From contig NZ_CP077769.1 in assembly GCF_020386615.1 (NCBI RefSeq), positions 6,931,501 to 6,995,500 on the forward strand: a DNA stretch of 64,000 bases. Direction: 5' to 3'. Origin of the DNA: Chitinophaga pendula (lineage in GTDB: Bacteria > Bacteroidota > Bacteroidia > Chitinophagales > Chitinophagaceae). Under the pieces are notes generated by a model. That model was not told the DNA's origin. It saw only the letters and a program-made list of their open reading frames with translations, and searched no databases. Positions 5,888-51,186 of the stretch are shown here, piece by piece. The position numbers were made by a program, and so were the translations under genes. Each line of letters starts with the position of its first letter. Position 1 is the first letter of the stretch.

Positions 5888-6227
5888 CTTTTTTAAGAAT
5901 GGTTGTGATATTTCAGTGACTTTGATTAACTTGTATATATCCCGTTATGCGCGATTTAATGAGAAATAAGTATACCGATGCCAGCTATATTAATGCACAA
6001 TATTGTTATACTCCTTATTACCTTACTATTTGTGCTCATCAATAAATATTGGAGACACGAGAAAGCCAAATAGGTAGATTCAGTAGTAACAGTAAGAGAG
6101 TCAGGATTTAAGCGCAGCAGATTGCGCCATTATGTTTATTGCACTGCATAGATGTCATCCGGAAAGGAGGCAACAGGCTGTTATTTTTCAAAAGAATTAA
6201 TTAGTCTATAAAATTTGTGGACTTTTA
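5888..6227. other. Intergenic region after the kinase gene
   Basis: No clear terminator follows the kinase gene. The region contains a possible 31-codon membrane peptide gene (5978-6073) and a small GCGCA/TGCGC hairpin near 6112-6127. Nothing else is recognisable. Confidence 0.4.
5978..6073 (+). CDS. Possible small single-span membrane peptide (31 aa)
   Basis: The frame encodes a peptide with a hydrophobic core (HNIVILLITLLFVLI) followed by a basic tail (NKYWRHEKAK), the layout of many small inner-membrane proteins. It lies 90 bases after the kinase gene. There is no strong ribosome site, but that is normal in this phylum. Chance occurrence cannot be excluded at this length; it might be a small subunit or regulator linked to the membrane kinase upstream. 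Confidence 0.3.
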   Translation: MPAILMHNIVILLITLLFVLINKYWRHEKAK

Positions 6228-6259
6228 TTTGGTAAATAAAAAGCAGCCTTTTATCTTTG
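6228..6259 (+). promoter_or_regulatory. Promoter of the leader-peptide/redox operon
   Basis: TTTG (6228-6231), a 20-base spacer and TATCTTTG (6252-6259) form a near-ideal Bacteroidota promoter. The start point should be near 6266, giving a leader of about 355 bases before the first structural gene. Confidence 0.75.
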
Positions 6260-6375
6260 TTTTACCAACCTAATTAAACCACCATTAATTAGTTAATTTA
6301 TTCGGCTGTTGCCAGTGCGGCTCCCCTATTGATGAGAGGAAGGCTGCATCCTGTTGCAACATAAATTGACTAAAG

Positions 6376-6444
6376 ATGAATATTCACCATTACACTTTTC
6401 GCTACAGTTGTTGTGCCAAGGGGCATTGTTGTTTCTGTGACTGA
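6376..6444 (+). CDS. Cys-rich leader peptide (22 aa)
   Basis: A 22-codon frame begins about 110 bases after the predicted start point and lies 176 bases ahead of the first operon gene. Its C-terminal half is SCCAKGHCCFCD: five of its last eleven residues are Cys, in two Cys-Cys pairs plus one more. Downstream, AGCAG (6503-6507), CTGCT (6513-6517) and AGCAG (6533-6537) allow two mutually exclusive hairpins. The arrangement resembles a cysteine-sensing attenuator in which ribosomes stall at Cys codons. That function is inference; no family match is claimed. Confidence 0.5.
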   Translation: MNIHHYTFRYSCCAKGHCCFCD

Positions 6445-6620
6445 TCTGCGGTTCACTCCCCGCTTTTACCACTTCATTTTTCTCTAGAACATTTAGTGCA
6501 TCAGCAGTATGGCTGCTAGTATGCCTGTTTACAGCAGGTGTATGACATTGCCATGTCTACGTTGTATGCTATCACCTATCTGTTATTGACATTCCATCTC
6601 TTACCAAAAAATTATCAACC

Positions 6621-7907
6621 ATGAAGATCCTTAGATTTCCCGGCGTAACGGGCCTGCTGGCTGCTGTGCTGTGGAGTACCAACATAAGTGCTGTGCCAAA
6701 GAAAGCATTTATCAAAGAAGGCATATGGCGAGGTGTTTTTACCATTAACGAAGCGGAAGTGCCCTTCAACTTTGAATTAAAAGGGAAAGATCCTGAGCAC
6801 GCGGTATTCACCTTGTTGAACGGCAGCCGGAGAGATGACTTTCATGTGAAACGTATTGGCGATGATTCTCTCTTCATAAAAATGAATACTTATGATGCTG
6901 CACTGGTAGCGCATATCGAAAGTGACGGACGATTGACAGGAGAGTACAGAAGCCTGGTGCCTAACTTCCGGGGTAGTTCGCTGCCATTTGTAGCGGAATA
7001 CGGTAAGCGTTACCGTTACATCGCCCCCGGTCAGGATGTGCCCCCTCGCTTTAATATAAGCGGTAAGTGGGAGCTTAAAATATACAGTAAAGAGCCCTCT
7101 CCCAACCGTGTTGCTTTGCTGAAGCAGCAAGGCAATAAACTGACTGGTGTAATCATGTCGGTAGTAGGTGACAGCCGCGAGTTAGAAGGGACGGTACAGG
7201 GAGATGAGTTCGTGTTATCGGGTTTTACTGGTCCCAGTCCGATCTTCATCAAAGGGAAGATCAGCGATGACAAGGTACTCAGTGGGGAGCTGAGCCTGGG
7301 TATTTACAACAATGTAAAATTTGACGGGGATAAAAATGCCGGAGCGGCGCTGCCGGACCCTTATAAGCTGACTTATCTGAAGGAAGGTTACAACAGGCTG
7401 GATTTTACCTTGCCTGACCTGGACGGAAAGCCGGTGTCATTAAGTGATGAAAAGTATAAAGGAAAGGTCGTGATCGTGGAGATCATTGGCACCTGGTGCC
7501 CGAACTGTACCGATCAGACCGCCTTTCTGGCGCCTTGGTATAAGAAAAATAAGGATCGGGGTGTAGCTGCTATTGCCGTAGGTTTTGAGCAGAAGGACGA
7601 CCTTGATTATGCCCGTTATACGCTGGGTAAACTCCGGGATAAATACGATATACAATACGATATCCTTTTTGGTGGCATTGCGGATAAGAAGGTCGCATCT
7701 GAGCAATTCCCCGCGTTGAACCGTATGATGGCTTTTCCTACTACTATTATCATAGACCGTAACGGTGTGGTTCGCCAGATACATACCGGTTATACCGGCG
7801 AGGTGACAGGTGACTACTACAAAGCTTATGTAGAAAAATGGAATAAAGATCTTGATGAACTGATTGCGGAACCGGCAGGTGAAGCGGTTGCCAGCAATAC
7901 GTTTTAG
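6621..7907 (+). CDS. TlpA-like periplasmic thiol-disulfide oxidoreductase
   Basis: 428 residues with a signal peptide (first 24 or so). Residues about 30-250 form a beta-rich region of unclear role, as in other Bacteroidota TlpA proteins. The C-terminal thioredoxin fold (about 260-415) carries the redox motif GTWCPNC with C293 and C296. The cis-proline region (AFPTTIIIDRNGVV) is also present. It should reduce or exchange disulfides in the periplasm, perhaps of the c-type cytochrome or other products of the operon. It is the first gene after the Cys-rich leader, followed by a 117-base gap with a strong hairpin. Confidence 0.88.
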   Translation: MKILRFPGVTGLLAAVLWSTNISAVPKKAFIKEGIWRGVFTINEAEVPFNFELKGKDPEHAVFTLLNGSRRDDFHVKRIGDDSLFIKMNTYDAALVAHIESDGRLTGEYRSLVPNFRGSSLPFVAEYGKRYRYIAPGQDVPPRFNISGKWELKIYSKEPSPNRVALLKQQGNKLTGVIMSVVGDSRELEGTVQGDEFVLSGFTGPSPIFIKGKISDDKVLSGELSLGIYNNVKFDGDKNAGAALPDPYKLTYLKEGYNRLDFTLPDLDGKPVSLSDEKYKGKVVIVEIIGTWCPNCTDQTAFLAPWYKKNKDRGVAAIAVGFEQKDDLDYARYTLGKLRDKYDIQYDILFGGIADKKVASEQFPALNRMMAFPTTIIIDRNGVVRQIHTGYTGEVTGDYYKAYVEKWNKDLDELIAEPAGEAVASNTF

Positions 7908-8024: not shown

Positions 8025-8684
8025 ATGAAATACGCTGCTTCTTATGCATCTATAGGTGTTCTTGCGATCATCACTGCCTTTACTATACAGGTTTCTGCGG
8101 AGAAGGGAAATCCGCTTCCTGCGGCTCCTATTAAAGTCAATACTGCTGTTGCGCGGAAGGCTGCGACCTATCATGTGGATGTGCAGCATAGCCAGCTGAC
8201 ATGGACGGGGCATAAAGTTACGGGGCAGCATAGTGGTAACATCGCTGTATCAAAAGGCGATTTCAACGTGGAAAACAACAAGGTGAAGAGTGGCAGTTTT
8301 CAGCTGGATACACGTAGCATTACGGTGACAGATATAACGGATAAGGACGGCAACAGTAAACTGCTTGGTCATCTGAAGGGGGATGACTTCTTTGCGGTGG
8401 AGAAATATCCGTCGGCTGCATTTGTGACTACGAGTATAACCCCCGGTAGCGGAAACAGCTATGATGTGAAAGGTAAACTAACGATCAAAGGTATTACCCA
8501 GGATATCAGTTTCCCGGCTACTATCACCGTGGATAATAATCAGCTGGTGGCGAAGGCCAATATCAAAGTAGACCGTACCAAGTATGATATCAAATTCCAT
8601 TCAAAGCGCTTTTTTGATAACCTGGGAGATAAGGTGATCTATGATGATTTTGACCTTGATATTACGCTGGTAGCTAAGCCCTGA
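8025..8684 (+). CDS. YceI family lipid-binding protein
   Basis: 219 residues, with a signal peptide ending near residue 26. The remaining part is a YceI lipocalin-like fold: the opening YHVDVQHSQLTWTGHKVTGQHSG, then SFQLDTRSITVTDI, GDDFFAVEKYPSAAFVTT and GKLTIKGITQDISFPATI are family hallmarks. YceI proteins bind isoprenoid or other amphiphilic molecules in the periplasm. The gene is 35 bases ahead of the diheme peroxidase, a neighbourhood seen repeatedly for YceI proteins in this phylum. A second YceI gene lies at 35216-35758. Confidence 0.93.
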   Translation: MKYAASYASIGVLAIITAFTIQVSAEKGNPLPAAPIKVNTAVARKAATYHVDVQHSQLTWTGHKVTGQHSGNIAVSKGDFNVENNKVKSGSFQLDTRSITVTDITDKDGNSKLLGHLKGDDFFAVEKYPSAAFVTTSITPGSGNSYDVKGKLTIKGITQDISFPATITVDNNQLVAKANIKVDRTKYDIKFHSKRFFDNLGDKVIYDDFDLDITLVAKP

Positions 8685-8719: not shown

Positions 8720-9670
8720 ATGTATTACAGGATACTGACAGGCGGCTTGCTGCTGTTAGCAGTATTGCTGTCTGCTACCCAAGAAGAAGAGCCGGCGACA
8801 CGCGCTCAACTAGGTAAAAAGCTGTTCTTCGATCCCATCCTTTCTGCTGATAGAACGATCAGTTGTGCCAGCTGTCATCAGCCACGTTTTGCTTTTGCGG
8901 ATACCGCAGTATTCAGCCAGGGTATTAACGGGAAGTTGACGGTACGTAATACCCCTGGTATTACCAATCTGGCTGGCCGGCCGAACTATTTCTGGGATGG
9001 CAGGGCCGCCACCCTGGAAGAACAAGCGAAGCAGCCTATTATCTCCCCGGATGAAATGGGTTTACCTATTGCAGAAGCAGTCATCCGGCTCAATGCTGAA
9101 CCAGCGTATGTCAATGCTTTCAGAAAGATATTCAACAGTGACCCCTCCGAGCAGGCGTTGCTGCAGGCGATAGCGGCCTATGAGAGAACGCTGGAGACGG
9201 CTAACAGTCCTTACGACCGGTATATCAACGGTGATGATAATGCGATGTCTGCATCGGCTATACGAGGGCGCTTGTTATTCATTGGCAAAGCCAATTGCAG
9301 TACTTGCCATTCGGGGGAAGACTTTACAGCGGATCGTTTTAAGAACATTGGGTTGTATAACGGTAAAGAGTTGAGGGATGCGGGGCGTTATGGTGTAACG
9401 AAGGATTCTGCACATATGGGATTTTTCAAGGTGCCGGGTCTGCGTAATGTAGCTGTAACGGCGCCGTATATGCATAACGGCATGTTCAGGACGTTAAGGG
9501 AAGTGATCGAGTATTATAACTCACCGGATCGTGTAGTAAGCGGCGGTATCAAGCGGGATCTTTCGCTAGGGGCGCCTTTGCAGCTGACAGGTACTGATAT
9601 GGATGACCTGGAATCTTTTCTGCAGGCATTGACAGATGATCAATTCAGTGGTGTTCATCAACCAAAATAA
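8720..9670 (+). CDS. Diheme cytochrome c peroxidase (MauG/CcpA type)
   Basis: 316 residues with an N-terminal export signal. Two c-haem sites are visible: CASCH (C49, C52, H53) and CSTCH (C193, C196, H197). FFDPILSADRTISC, FWDGRAATLEEQ and the distal APYMHNGMFRTLREV are standard for bacterial diheme peroxidases, which act in the periplasm on hydrogen peroxide or, in MauG-like members, on protein residues. It ends five bases before the TonB receptor gene, so peroxidase and receptor are surely co-expressed. A second, distinct diheme enzyme lies at 38942-39982. Confidence 0.93.
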   Translation: MYYRILTGGLLLLAVLLSATQEEEPATRAQLGKKLFFDPILSADRTISCASCHQPRFAFADTAVFSQGINGKLTVRNTPGITNLAGRPNYFWDGRAATLEEQAKQPIISPDEMGLPIAEAVIRLNAEPAYVNAFRKIFNSDPSEQALLQAIAAYERTLETANSPYDRYINGDDNAMSASAIRGRLLFIGKANCSTCHSGEDFTADRFKNIGLYNGKELRDAGRYGVTKDSAHMGFFKVPGLRNVAVTAPYMHNGMFRTLREVIEYYNSPDRVVSGGIKRDLSLGAPLQLTGTDMDDLESFLQALTDDQFSGVHQPK

Positions 9671-9675
9671 CACGC

Positions 9676-12444
9676 ATGAAGATCGCTACTACTACCTTGC
9701 TTTTCATATGGTTTGTTTTATGGCAGGCGCTGCCATTATTTGCGCAGGAAAGAACGATTACCGGCATAGTACTTACTACCAGGGACCGTACCCCTCTGGA
9801 AGGCGTTGCTGTGTGGGTAAAAGGCACCGCCAGGGGAGTTCGTACCTCTCCTGACGGCTCTTTCCGTATTCAGGTACAAAAAGACAGTACGTTGGTATTT
9901 TCCTTTCTCGGATACGAAACCCAGGAGCTGATTCCTGGTCACCGTAAGACGCTGGAGGTAACGCTTATTGCGACTACCCGGGCATTGGGCGCGATACAGA
10001 TCGTCGGCTCCAGAAATGCTACGCGTACCAAATTGAATTCACCTGTACCTGTAGATGTCATTGATGTTAAGTCTTTACAGGAGTTGGCGCCACAGGCAAG
10101 TATTACACAATTGCTGCAATATATTTCTCCTTCCTTTCATTCGGTTAACGGCAGTAATGCCGGAGATGCCGGGTCTGCGCTCAACCTGGTGCAGTTAAAA
10201 GGTTTGGGGGTGGACCAACTGCTGGTGCTGGTGAATGGTAAACGGAGGCATAAGAGTGCCAATATCAACTGGGGTGGATTGGGTAACGGGGCTACCGGAT
10301 ATGATCTGAATGCATTGCCTGCAACAGCAATAGACCGTATTGAGATATTGCGCGACGGTGCCGCCGCCCAATACGGTTCTGATGCGATAGCGGGTGTGAT
10401 CAATATTGTACTGAAACAGCAGACGGGTGAGCTGGGGATCAATACCACTGCCAGTGTGCGTAGAAGAGGGGATGGTTTACAGACGCGGACCGGCGCCAAC
10501 TATGGCATCAAACTGGGCAATGGCGGCGGATATGTGAATGTGACTACTGAGTTTGCTACCCAGTCGCTGGCATTACCAGCCGGTCGAAAGGATGCCGGAT
10601 TGTATTATGGTCCTATTTACGGCGGAGGCGCCAATACACGCGATTATGATGCGATCTATACCAAGGAAATAGACGATGCGATATTACGGAGCAGAGGGAT
10701 GGACCGGCATTATTTTGATCAGCGTGGTGGGGGGGCTAATAAGGCCAAAGACGCGCTGTTGTTTTTTAATGCGGCGGTGCCTTTGAAAGAAAGTGCTGAG
10801 ATCTATGCGTTTGGTGGTATCAGTCATCGCAATTCGCAGTTCACCGCTGTGTATCGGTTGCCCGGGTGGACAGAGCGTAATAATACCGCGCTTTATCCGG
10901 ATGGTTTTTTGCCTGCGATGGACAATATCATTACCGACAAATCACTGGCTGTGGGTATAAAAGGGAAGGTAAAGCACTGGTTGGTGGACTTTTCCAATGT
11001 ATATGGCCGCAATGACTTTTCCAATATCATTTCCAATTCGCTGAATGCCAGTATGGGGCTTAAAAGTCCCACTTCTTTTGATGCGGGTAGTTACAATGCT
11101 TCCCAGAATACGGCCAGCCTGGATGTGTCGAGGTATTTAGATAAGCCATTGAAGGGGATCAACATTGCGTTCGGAGCGCAATACCGGGTAGAAACCTATG
11201 AGATCAAGGCAGGAGAGGTTGCTTCGTACCAGAAGGCGGATCTGCGCCAGATATTCCGGGTGGACACTTCGGCGGCGGGCATTCCCTACCTGGCTGATGC
11301 CGGCTGGCTGGCGTTGAACGGTCTTTCTCCCGGTTCGCAGATACATGCCGGATTCCGTCCGGAGAACGAGGTACGTGTGAGCCGGGCTATTACGGCGGGT
11401 TATGTGGATGTGGAGCTGAATGTGACGCGGCAGTGGTTAGTTTCTGCTGCATTGAGGGCGGAGCATTTCTCCGACTTTGGTAATGTCACTACCGGTAAGA
11501 TAGCTACGCGATATAGTCTGGCGAAGTGGCTGAATATAAGAGGGGCTTTTAACACCGGTTTCAGGGCGCCTGACCTGGCTCAGTTCTATTATACGGAAAC
11601 CTCTACCAGCTTCCAGCAAGGCCGGGCGGTAGATCAGGTGACGGCGTCCAATAAAAGCGCTGCTACCCGCGCATTGGGTATTCCTTCCCTTACACCGGAG
11701 CGATCCCGTGGATATACGGTGGGCGTCACTGCGCAGCCAGCGGCTAACCTGGAGTTGTCGGTTGATGCTTACCAGGTATCTATTGACAATAGGGTGGGTA
11801 ATACGGGAAACTTTTCCGCAACGGATAACAACCTGCCGGCGGAAGTCCGGAGCTTGCTTTTGCAGACAGGGACGACGCAGGCGAAATTTTTCTATAACTC
11901 TTTCAGTACCCGCACCCGTGGTATTGAGTGGACCGGTAGTTATAAATTACCCTTATACAAAGGCTCACTCACTTTCCTGGCAGGGGCCAACTTCGTCACG
12001 AATGAAGTAACGCATGTCAATACTCCCAAGGGGCTGGAAGCTTATAGATATATCATCTTTAACGACGGTGAAAAGGCGCGGGTGACTACGCATATACCCG
12101 GTCAGAAAATAACCTTGCAGGGGGTGTATAGGCACGGGAAGTTCAATGCGCTGTTACGGACCGTTTATTTCGGTGCGGTGACGACTGCAACTGCATTGAA
12201 TGCAAACTTTCCCCGACCGGATTATTTCCTGCAGCGATTACGGCCTATCTGGGTGACGGATGTCGCTGTGGGCTATCACTTTACCAAAGGCATATTGGCA
12301 ACGATAGGTGTCAACAACCTGCTTGATGTGTCAGGTGATTATACCGCTACGCAAGTATCTGGCTTAAGGAATCCCACGGTAGTGGGTTTACAAAACGGTA
12401 GTGCGGGCATACAGCCATTTGCCCGGGTAAATGCCCGGTTTTGA
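9676..12444 (+). CDS. TonB-dependent outer membrane receptor
   Basis: 922 residues. A signal peptide (to about residue 23) is followed by a carboxypeptidase-regulatory-like domain (about 25-95) with GVAVWVKGTARGVRTSPDGSF. The plug domain (about 110-250) includes LVLVNGKRRHKSANINWGG and IDRIEILRDGAAAQYGSDAI, and a 22-strand-type barrel ends in aromatic FARVNARF. There is no SusD partner, so a small substrate such as a metal chelate or cofactor is likelier than glycan. The ligand cannot be read from sequence. It is the fourth gene of the unit and overlaps nothing; the next gene starts ten bases on. Confidence 0.93.
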   Translation: MKIATTTLLFIWFVLWQALPLFAQERTITGIVLTTRDRTPLEGVAVWVKGTARGVRTSPDGSFRIQVQKDSTLVFSFLGYETQELIPGHRKTLEVTLIATTRALGAIQIVGSRNATRTKLNSPVPVDVIDVKSLQELAPQASITQLLQYISPSFHSVNGSNAGDAGSALNLVQLKGLGVDQLLVLVNGKRRHKSANINWGGLGNGATGYDLNALPATAIDRIEILRDGAAAQYGSDAIAGVINIVLKQQTGELGINTTASVRRRGDGLQTRTGANYGIKLGNGGGYVNVTTEFATQSLALPAGRKDAGLYYGPIYGGGANTRDYDAIYTKEIDDAILRSRGMDRHYFDQRGGGANKAKDALLFFNAAVPLKESAEIYAFGGISHRNSQFTAVYRLPGWTERNNTALYPDGFLPAMDNIITDKSLAVGIKGKVKHWLVDFSNVYGRNDFSNIISNSLNASMGLKSPTSFDAGSYNASQNTASLDVSRYLDKPLKGINIAFGAQYRVETYEIKAGEVASYQKADLRQIFRVDTSAAGIPYLADAGWLALNGLSPGSQIHAGFRPENEVRVSRAITAGYVDVELNVTRQWLVSAALRAEHFSDFGNVTTGKIATRYSLAKWLNIRGAFNTGFRAPDLAQFYYTETSTSFQQGRAVDQVTASNKSAATRALGIPSLTPERSRGYTVGVTAQPAANLELSVDAYQVSIDNRVGNTGNFSATDNNLPAEVRSLLLQTGTTQAKFFYNSFSTRTRGIEWTGSYKLPLYKGSLTFLAGANFVTNEVTHVNTPKGLEAYRYIIFNDGEKARVTTHIPGQKITLQGVYRHGKFNALLRTVYFGAVTTATALNANFPRPDYFLQRLRPIWVTDVAVGYHFTKGILATIGVNNLLDVSGDYTATQVSGLRNPTVVGLQNGSAGIQPFARVNARF

Positions 12445-12454
12445 TCTAAAATGA

Positions 12455-13267
12455 ATGACTATGAAAAAGTATCTGTTCCTATTATTCTCGTTTGTTGGTC
12501 TGATCCTTTTGGCAGGATGTAATAAGGGGGATTACCTGGATGTAAACGCCGGGGAGCGGCCTGCGCTGAATGCATATATTAGTTTTGTAAATGCGCGTCC
12601 GACAGCTACTCCCCTACACTTCTGGACTTTTACGACACGGGTTACTGCAGCAGGTGTTACGCCTAATAGCGCCAGCCCGTACCTGTCTACTGTATTCGGT
12701 AATGTGCAGATCAACTTTACAGAAGGTGCAGGTACCAGCTACAAAGTATCCCGTCAGTTTGGTAACCAGGCGGCATTCAATGCTAACGGAGGGCCTAACG
12801 GGCCTATCCCGGATTACTATCACACAGTATTTGCGGCCCGCAAGAAGACAGCATTTGATCAGGACACATTGATCCTGTTCTATGATAACCTAGAAGCGCC
12901 GGCAGCCGGCAAGGTAAAATTGCGTTTTGTACACCTGGCACCTGATGTACCAGCAGTAAGCCTTCGTGCTATACGGGATGGGAAAGACAGTGTTCTATTC
13001 AGCACGGTAGACTATGGCAGCGCAGGAGGTGCGATACTTTCCGGTGAGCAGCTACAGGCATTTTCCCTGGGCCCTTTTATAACGCTGGATGCAAGATATA
13101 GCTTCCAGGTACGATTGGTACATACGCAGGAATTGTTACCCGGACTGCAGCGGGATCTTGACAGGATACAGCTGCAGCCCGGACATATTTATACACTTTT
13201 CCTCTATGGATTAGCTGGCAAGACAGGAGAGGCAGGCGCTGCCCTTATTGAGCATGCCAAATCTTAG
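12455..13267 (+). CDS. DUF4397 domain lipoprotein
   Basis: 270 residues (or 268 if the second ATG at 12461 is used). A lipoprotein signal ends in LILLAGC. The rest is a beta-rich surface or periplasmic protein; the second half (KVKLRFVHLAPDVPAVSLRAIRDGKDSVLFSTVDYG) matches the DUF4397 fold. It follows the TonB receptor by ten bases and probably serves as its accessory surface lipoprotein or as an independent adhesion-like factor; the actual role is unknown. Confidence 0.8.
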   Translation: MTMKKYLFLLFSFVGLILLAGCNKGDYLDVNAGERPALNAYISFVNARPTATPLHFWTFTTRVTAAGVTPNSASPYLSTVFGNVQINFTEGAGTSYKVSRQFGNQAAFNANGGPNGPIPDYYHTVFAARKKTAFDQDTLILFYDNLEAPAAGKVKLRFVHLAPDVPAVSLRAIRDGKDSVLFSTVDYGSAGGAILSGEQLQAFSLGPFITLDARYSFQVRLVHTQELLPGLQRDLDRIQLQPGHIYTLFLYGLAGKTGEAGAALIEHAKS

Positions 13268-50999: not shown

Positions 51000-51186
51000 C
51001 CTGTTTATAAAAAGATTACTGCACAACCCCTTGCTAACCAGTTACATTGTAAGACCAGTCCCCCACCCCGCCTCCAATCCCCGTAAATAAAGTCCTCGGA
51101 AATTTTGTAAATAAGCAATAGGCACACTAATTTAGTCCACTAATTCTATAGACTATTAACATTAAAACCACCAAAATCACATTTTA

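Follow-up and report, generated by a model that had tools for sequence, protein, structure and literature searches.

The window, that is, the whole stretch of 64,000 nucleotides that was analysed, comes from a Chitinophaga pendula genome assembled as one contig of 7.66 Mb. An operon on its forward strand encodes, in this order, a TlpA-like protein, a YceI-family protein, a MauG/MbnH-type diheme peroxidase, a TonB receptor, and a DUF4397 protein. The first structural gene (6621-7907) specifies a TlpA-like thioredoxin with an N-terminal extension, matched by the Pfam families AhpC-TSA and Redoxin. It is followed by the yceI gene (8025-8684, PF04264), which lies downstream of tlpA in all 31 orthologs examined, and by the diheme peroxidase gene (8720-9670, PF03150), for which the top NCBIfam match, TIGR04039 (MbnH), falls under the cut-off. 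The TonB-dependent outer-membrane receptor (9676-12444) combines Plug and barrel domains, and the DUF4397 protein (12455-13267, PF14344) is probably a lipoprotein.

The upstream region, on the same strand, begins with the palindrome TAGTCTATAAAATTTGTGGACTTTT (6202-6226), which has no mismatch to the pattern TAGTCYAYNAANNTNRTRGACTWTT and is presumed to be the operator of a sulfur regulator. Under this sulfur-type candidate operator, the MbnH/MauG-like enzyme adjoins the TonB receptor. Next comes the promoter, TTTG-20 nt-TATCTTTG (6228-6259), a good match to the Bacteroidota promoter consensus (TTTG/TAnnTTTG), and the sole TAnnTTTG element found within 1500 bases upstream of the operon. The original prediction had called it near-ideal, and its presence is confirmed. 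The palindrome is present without mismatch in 30/30 genus orthologs, and the TAnnTTTG element stands exactly 50 nt from the palindrome start in all of them. Transcription is expected to start a few bases 3' of this promoter.

The frame of interest, MNIHHYTFRYSCCAKGHCCFCD, starts with the ATG at 6376 and ends with its stop codon at 6444. It has 22 residues with five Cys among the last 11, exactly as first described, and Cys-ending frames recur at other loci. In the window, and in those orthologs having such a frame, it is located 3' of a conserved promoter and 5' of the gene, i.e., within the predicted transcribed leader. A second short frame of the window leader, MAASMPVYSRCMTLPCLRCMLSPICY (6509-6589), contains four spaced Cys and overlaps the AGCAG/CTGCT/AGCAG elements considered below. 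Rfam scanning of positions 5900-6800 gave three matches, all far under the gathering score, and no known cis-regulatory RNA or riboswitch.

The palindrome is a recurrent sequence. When up to three mismatches were allowed, 34 matches were found on both strands of the window's own genome, versus 5 for a reversed control pattern. A search of the family (probably Chitinophagaceae) at one mismatch found it in 54 of 127 genomes, and the reversed control in 3. In an order-wide draw of 149 genomes, the exact palindrome was present in 6 of 18 family genomes versus none of the 131 others. Judging by eye from translations, own-genome sites precede a Cys/Met-type PLP gene, a cysE-cysM-like pair, a second tlpA, a redoxin gene, and several TonB/SusC receptor genes; some sites precede genes with no evident sulfur link. 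The Pfam domains encoded downstream of the sites include PAPS reductase, tetrapyrrole methylase, Cys/Met PLP enzyme, PALP, SrpI-like, and TauE domains, from which the names cysD and cysH were inferred, and sulfur genes are also found among the palindrome genes that have no leader. The window operon probably belongs to a sulfur regulon recognisable by the palindrome TAGTCTAnnAAnnTnATAGACTA, and it is this shared palindrome that suggests its tie to sulfur or cysteine supply. Our guess is that the palindrome is bound by an Rrf2-family regulator. One Rrf2-family gene of the window's own genome (C1:4673741-4674145), a candidate for the binder, lies immediately 5' of the gene for PAPS reductase.

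TlpA homologs were detected at E ≤1e-20 in all 79 genus genomes; the close group comprises 34 places with 67-100% identity, the rest being distant, and the upstream DNA was compared for the best 30 orthologs, ATG frames only. Conservation of the frame and its Cys codons in relatives, on which the original prediction had staked its case, is found within the genus, but only for part of these orthologs: 17/30 have a leader frame in which two or more Cys fall within six residues (e.g., MYNFLRSSGCMPCCCS, MKQPVYFFRCCPHNILKF, and MNNNHYHRNCHRCCIYFTRPGSACC), and four more have a frame ending in a single Arg-Cys, while nine, with leaders of 121-138 nt, have no ATG Cys frame and yet keep the palindrome. 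With 9/30 orthologs devoid of it, gain and loss of the leader frame are frequent. A 31st ortholog, from a separate draw, carries the frame MINMNRIIYSSGCMPCCCSNTCC. Among 17 more distant family homologs of TlpA, a good palindrome is followed by a two-Cys frame in one case; in four others, a palindrome with up to two mismatches is present but no such frame follows it.

Orthologs with a MYNFLRSS-type peptide (n = 9) allow a comparison by column. Variable columns amount to 9/52 in the frame versus 37/64 just 3' of it, the 5' leader being as conserved as the frame (10/68). Within the frame, codon positions 1, 2, and 3 contain 3, 2, and 3 variable columns, hence no third-position excess, and one Cys is lost in two of the nine members. 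For seven MKxxV-type frames (codons 2-10), the corresponding counts are 2, 4, and 5, which does not establish coding either. The comparison thus separates the frame from the stretch 3' of it, without proof of coding. Exact-motif scanning of 60 genus genomes for CCxKGxCC gave two matches besides the window, neither of them in a similar leader as judged from the printed sequence, which indicates that the window peptide sequence itself is not conserved.

A chance frame has to be considered at this point, the leader then mattering only as RNA or as a spacer, and the palindrome alone exerting control. The orthologs without a frame and the missing third-position excess are both in its favour, and dinucleotide-preserving shuffling of the window leader also produces an ATG frame with at least five Cys in 11 residues in 12 of 5000 trials. 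Against it stands an enrichment of Cys over the whole set of palindrome leaders, approached by no other amino acid, and this makes a chance origin highly improbable.

This enrichment was measured on 115 palindrome-to-gene leaders from 90 family regions, each site being read in both directions and each gene assigned its nearest site; some of the directions in the set are presumably not real, and sites of the window's own genome were excluded. Leaders were searched for a frame that starts with ATG, spans 6-50 codons, and has at least three Cys in six residues, and compared with 100 rounds of shuffling. Of the 63 leaders that reach 100 nt, 20 contain such a frame and 43 do not, whereas shuffling, which ignores kinship, gave 0.88 on average and never more than 4; all 52 shorter leaders lack it. 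At a threshold of at least four Cys in six, the 63 leaders give 12 against 0.02 expected by shuffling. When other residues are counted in the same manner, Leu reaches 18 versus 13.5 expected, and Met, the only residue besides Cys to exceed every shuffle, reaches 2 versus a shuffle maximum of 1; none approaches Cys. By batch, the counts are 5/26 in the initial 31 regions, which had drawn attention to the pattern, and 15/37 in the 59 later ones, the exact Cys threshold having been set only after both batches, i.e., all 90 regions, had been listed. The 20 leaders are spread over 16 of 38 genomes. Cys codons are clustered by the stop codon beyond chance, and this clustering is specific to Cys.

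The TonB/SusC loci of the window's own genome provide a control. For 30 of them, the 500 nt before the automatically called start were inspected: both loci with a palindrome (up to two mismatches) have a frame with at least three Cys in six residues, and none of the other 28 reaches this threshold, as judged from the printed list. The contrast between 20/63 palindrome leaders and 0/28 TonB/SusC loci has a Fisher p of 2e-4. Besides the operon with the 22-codon frame, Cys-rich frames were noted at two SusC loci of this genome, one being MQSSTIHFFQRKDGTWCCFVCCCQ and the other ending HSCCCCTYMAA. Of 25 leader loci, 19 have a TAnnTTTG/A element no more than 160 nt 5' of the frame, in some cases overlapping the palindrome, and the other six yielded none over this distance.

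The genes behind the 20 Cys leaders encode 12 TonB Plug proteins, 3 PhyH, 2 PAPS reductases, 2 AhpC-TSA proteins, and 1 TlpA. Outside the family, in one genus of another Bacteroidia family, both matching genomes (L233 and L234) have a Cys frame before the PAPS reductase gene, ending MMCCFCCCC or MMCCCCCCC, with six or seven Cys in the last nine residues. Of 13 other PAPS reductase loci, 12 lacked frames with as few as two clustered Cys, and the PAPS reductase gene of the window's own genome has a two-Cys frame only, the ATG of which lies 5' of a TAnnTTTG element. The presence of the same design at sulfur-linked genes of relatives suggests a switch sensing how much cysteine the cell has at its disposal. 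Control by cysteine supply through the leader peptide, as initially proposed, is in this way well supported by comparison, from the recurrence among palindrome leaders and from the positions ahead of PAPS reductase genes within and beyond the family. As to the PhyH (phytanoyl-CoA dioxygenase) genes with a palindrome and a Cys leader (L102, L160, and L192), they possibly serve organosulfur breakdown.

What the leaders share is the position of the Cys codons. In 25/27 leaders, the stop codon follows the final Cys within two residues. These 27 comprise 21 from the fetched regions, among them one selected by its ending, and six chosen from the genus. Across loci, this nearness to the stop is kept, and neither the peptide sequence nor the Cys spacing is, which speaks against the other proposal of the original prediction, a peptide whose own redox state is sensed. 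It also bears on a nascent-chain arrest peptide of defined sequence, for which the FRCC or RC ending recurring in several genus orthologs could be quoted; as the peptides of the other loci have little in common except Cys near the stop, such a peptide is hardly credible.

The MbnH-like enzyme prompted us to consider copper sensing. The copper-responsive operon of Bordetella reportedly includes a TonB receptor. Upstream open reading frames (uORFs) responding to copper in Bordetella and Rhodobacter control copper-related operons, according to the excerpts available (PMC9426467, PMC9973294). A peptide of this kind, with its Cys binding copper or forming disulfides, would suit a Cys-rich sequence ahead of a MbnH/MauG-type diheme enzyme, a TlpA-like protein, and a TonB receptor. 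Nevertheless, the design also precedes PAPS reductase and PhyH genes, and while the signal of the copper uORFs is copper, the sulfur-gene palindrome and the variable Cys spacing point elsewhere here. Metal or redox sensing by the peptide was, therefore, set aside as very unlikely. The reading preferred here, to which we give a probability of roughly three in four, is that the 22-codon frame is a leader peptide reading cysteine, in the form of charged tRNA-Cys, within a sulfur regulon.

The way in which such a leader might act was sought in the RNA. The AGCAG/CTGCT/AGCAG elements of the original prediction are indeed present (6503-6537, starting at 6503, 6513, and 6533), but the switch between mutually exclusive hairpins that they were thought to form was rejected because it is not conserved, the triple being found in 0/29 other orthologs. 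A common intrinsic terminator behind the leaders was also looked for, and none was seen at 21 loci. The conserved alternative hairpins of a trp-type attenuator, one of them an intrinsic terminator, were not found at these leaders. The 177 nt after the window frame fold a little more stably than their shuffled versions (z -1.88; 7/200 as good), the whole window leader folds no better than shuffles (z -0.22), and no shared fold was detected in the 70 nt 3' of the stop over 27 leaders (mean z -0.45, single loci reaching -4.4).

In the window, the stop codon of the leader is followed by a C-rich, G-poor stretch (6445-6503), with 18 C and 7 G in 6444-6503, which is a candidate rut site for Rho; the Rho gene is encoded in the genome. 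Over 26 leaders, the 60 nt 3' of the stop contain 25.7% C and 12.9% G, a skew stronger than in palindrome leaders without such a Cys frame (p 9e-7) and in SusC controls (p 3e-4), positions being unmatched in both comparisons. Two genus leaders (L006 and L019) are without the skew and have more G than C after the stop.

If the frame is a cysteine-reading leader, transcription would start at the promoter and a ribosome would translate the 22 codons. With ample cysteine, the ribosome would complete the leader and come off at its stop codon, leaving the C-rich, G-poor RNA uncovered, and transcription would end ahead of the structural genes, with Rho as the most likely agent. With scarce Cys-tRNA, it would stall on the terminal Cys codons and cover the C-rich RNA, and transcription would reach tlpA-yceI-peroxidase-tonB-duf4397. 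Of this scheme, the frame, the recurrence of frames with Cys clustered by the stop, their association with the palindrome of sulfur genes, and the base skew 3' of them are observed; we infer translation, stalling, the direction of the response, and Rho. Among cysteine-responsive mechanisms, the Rho step stands at about even odds. A ribosome stalled at the leader end might instead alter folding or ribosome delivery at the first gene, without premature termination. This variant, which is counted within the same three in four, agrees with the lack of a common terminator and with the 39-126 nt that separate the leader stop from the gene start at 15 of 21 loci. On the other hand, the gap is 208-412 nt at the other six, the 176 nt of the window are long for direct coupling, and the C-rich, G-poor bias after the leader is left unexplained, so that this variant appears rather unlikely.

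Stalling that masks a Rho loading site is favoured in view of the missing shared fold, the base skew, the encoded Rho, and the resemblance to the mycobacterial cys-leader arrangement. In the E. coli tna leader, a ribosome held at the leader end masks RNA needed by Rho; there, the stall arises because free tryptophan is sensed by means of a conserved peptide, TnaC. The mechanism proposed here is like tna in that a stalled ribosome would mask the Rho RNA, and unlike it in that stalling would be driven by codons. The tna leader is named as a parallel for the mycobacterial cys leaders in the available excerpt of PMC1262725, which proposes a Rho-dependent terminator for the latter because no conserved terminator hairpin is found. 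As far as the excerpts go, the mycobacterial and actinobacterial cys operon, cysA2, and cbs have a short uORF with a Cys run near the stop, before sulfur genes (PMC1262725, PMC4633059). The leaders described here share with them the Cys codons by the stop, the sulfur genes, the missing conserved terminator hairpin, and the suggestion of Rho. They differ in belonging to another phylum, in that many mostly unrelated peptides stand behind one palindrome, and in that most precede TonB/SusC receptors; moreover, the mycobacterial leaders lie on leaderless mRNAs, which is not expected here. Polycysteine leaders of mycobacteria have reportedly also been studied by experiment.

In Rhodobacterales, the uORFC-8-2 motif upstream of cysS contains tandem Cys codons and is read as ribosome-mediated attenuation, with a two-stem RNA and an intrinsic terminator according to the excerpt (PMC8632094), whereas no such common structure was found here. 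In a Flavobacterium, clues to leader-peptide attenuation have been reported ahead of amino-acid operons, cysteine not being named in the passage concerned (PMC9723704). Cysteine leader peptides have, in the excerpts available, been described in Actinobacteria and predicted in Rhodobacterales, and searches of open-licence PMC papers brought up none recognised as reporting them from Bacteroidota.

A wider generalisation is offered tentatively, at somewhat less than even chances. In the family and in at least one other family of the class, there might be a regulon-wide, Rho-dependent checkpoint, controlled by Cys-tRNA and acting after a common sulfur regulator. Its leader peptides would be short-lived, repeatedly invented, and mostly unrelated except for the Cys at the stop, and they would stand mainly before TonB/SusC genes, thereby gating outer-membrane uptake by aminoacyl-tRNA charge. 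If the reading as cysteine leader peptides is right, the leaders would allow a role in sulfur scavenging to be assigned to outer-membrane receptors of Bacteroidota, giving a function to unannotated TonB/SusC operons. It would also suggest that the TlpA-YceI-peroxidase-TonB operon serves sulfur-limited cells, and would make the group a natural test of leader-peptide origin and loss.

Some further features of the leader and of the palindrome sites may be mentioned. At the expected transcript start, the window RNA can form a 5' hairpin, CTAATTAA/ACCACCA/TTAATTAG (6270-6292), and CCACC-containing loops are seen by eye in many of the 30 orthologs, on other stems such as ACTGAT/ATCAGT or AGAAAA/TTTTCT. 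The 3' arm of this hairpin can alternatively pair with bases just before the leader ATG, in a second, overlapping stem (6289-6373) formed by TTAGTTAATTTAT (6289-6301) and ATAAATTGACTAA (6361-6373). By eye, a comparable pre-frame stem exists in most orthologs having a frame, except L026, L027, and L034. Alternation between the 5' hairpin and the pre-ATG pairing possibly controls leader translation.

The window contains a second copy of the palindrome (51133-51157, one mismatch), about 30 nt before the ATG of a TonB-type receptor (51187), with no leader frame. Elsewhere in the genome, at C1:1906816, a leader that by eye resembles a SAM riboswitch lies between a palindrome and a Cys/Met PLP-type gene, which would amount to a different kind of two-layered control within this regulon. 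SrpI-type encapsulin genes stand behind the palindrome at C1:5634759 of this genome (by eye) and at L171 (Pfam match), the former followed by a desulfurase-like gene (by eye); from these assignments, the encapsulin would be a sulfur storage compartment within the regulon.
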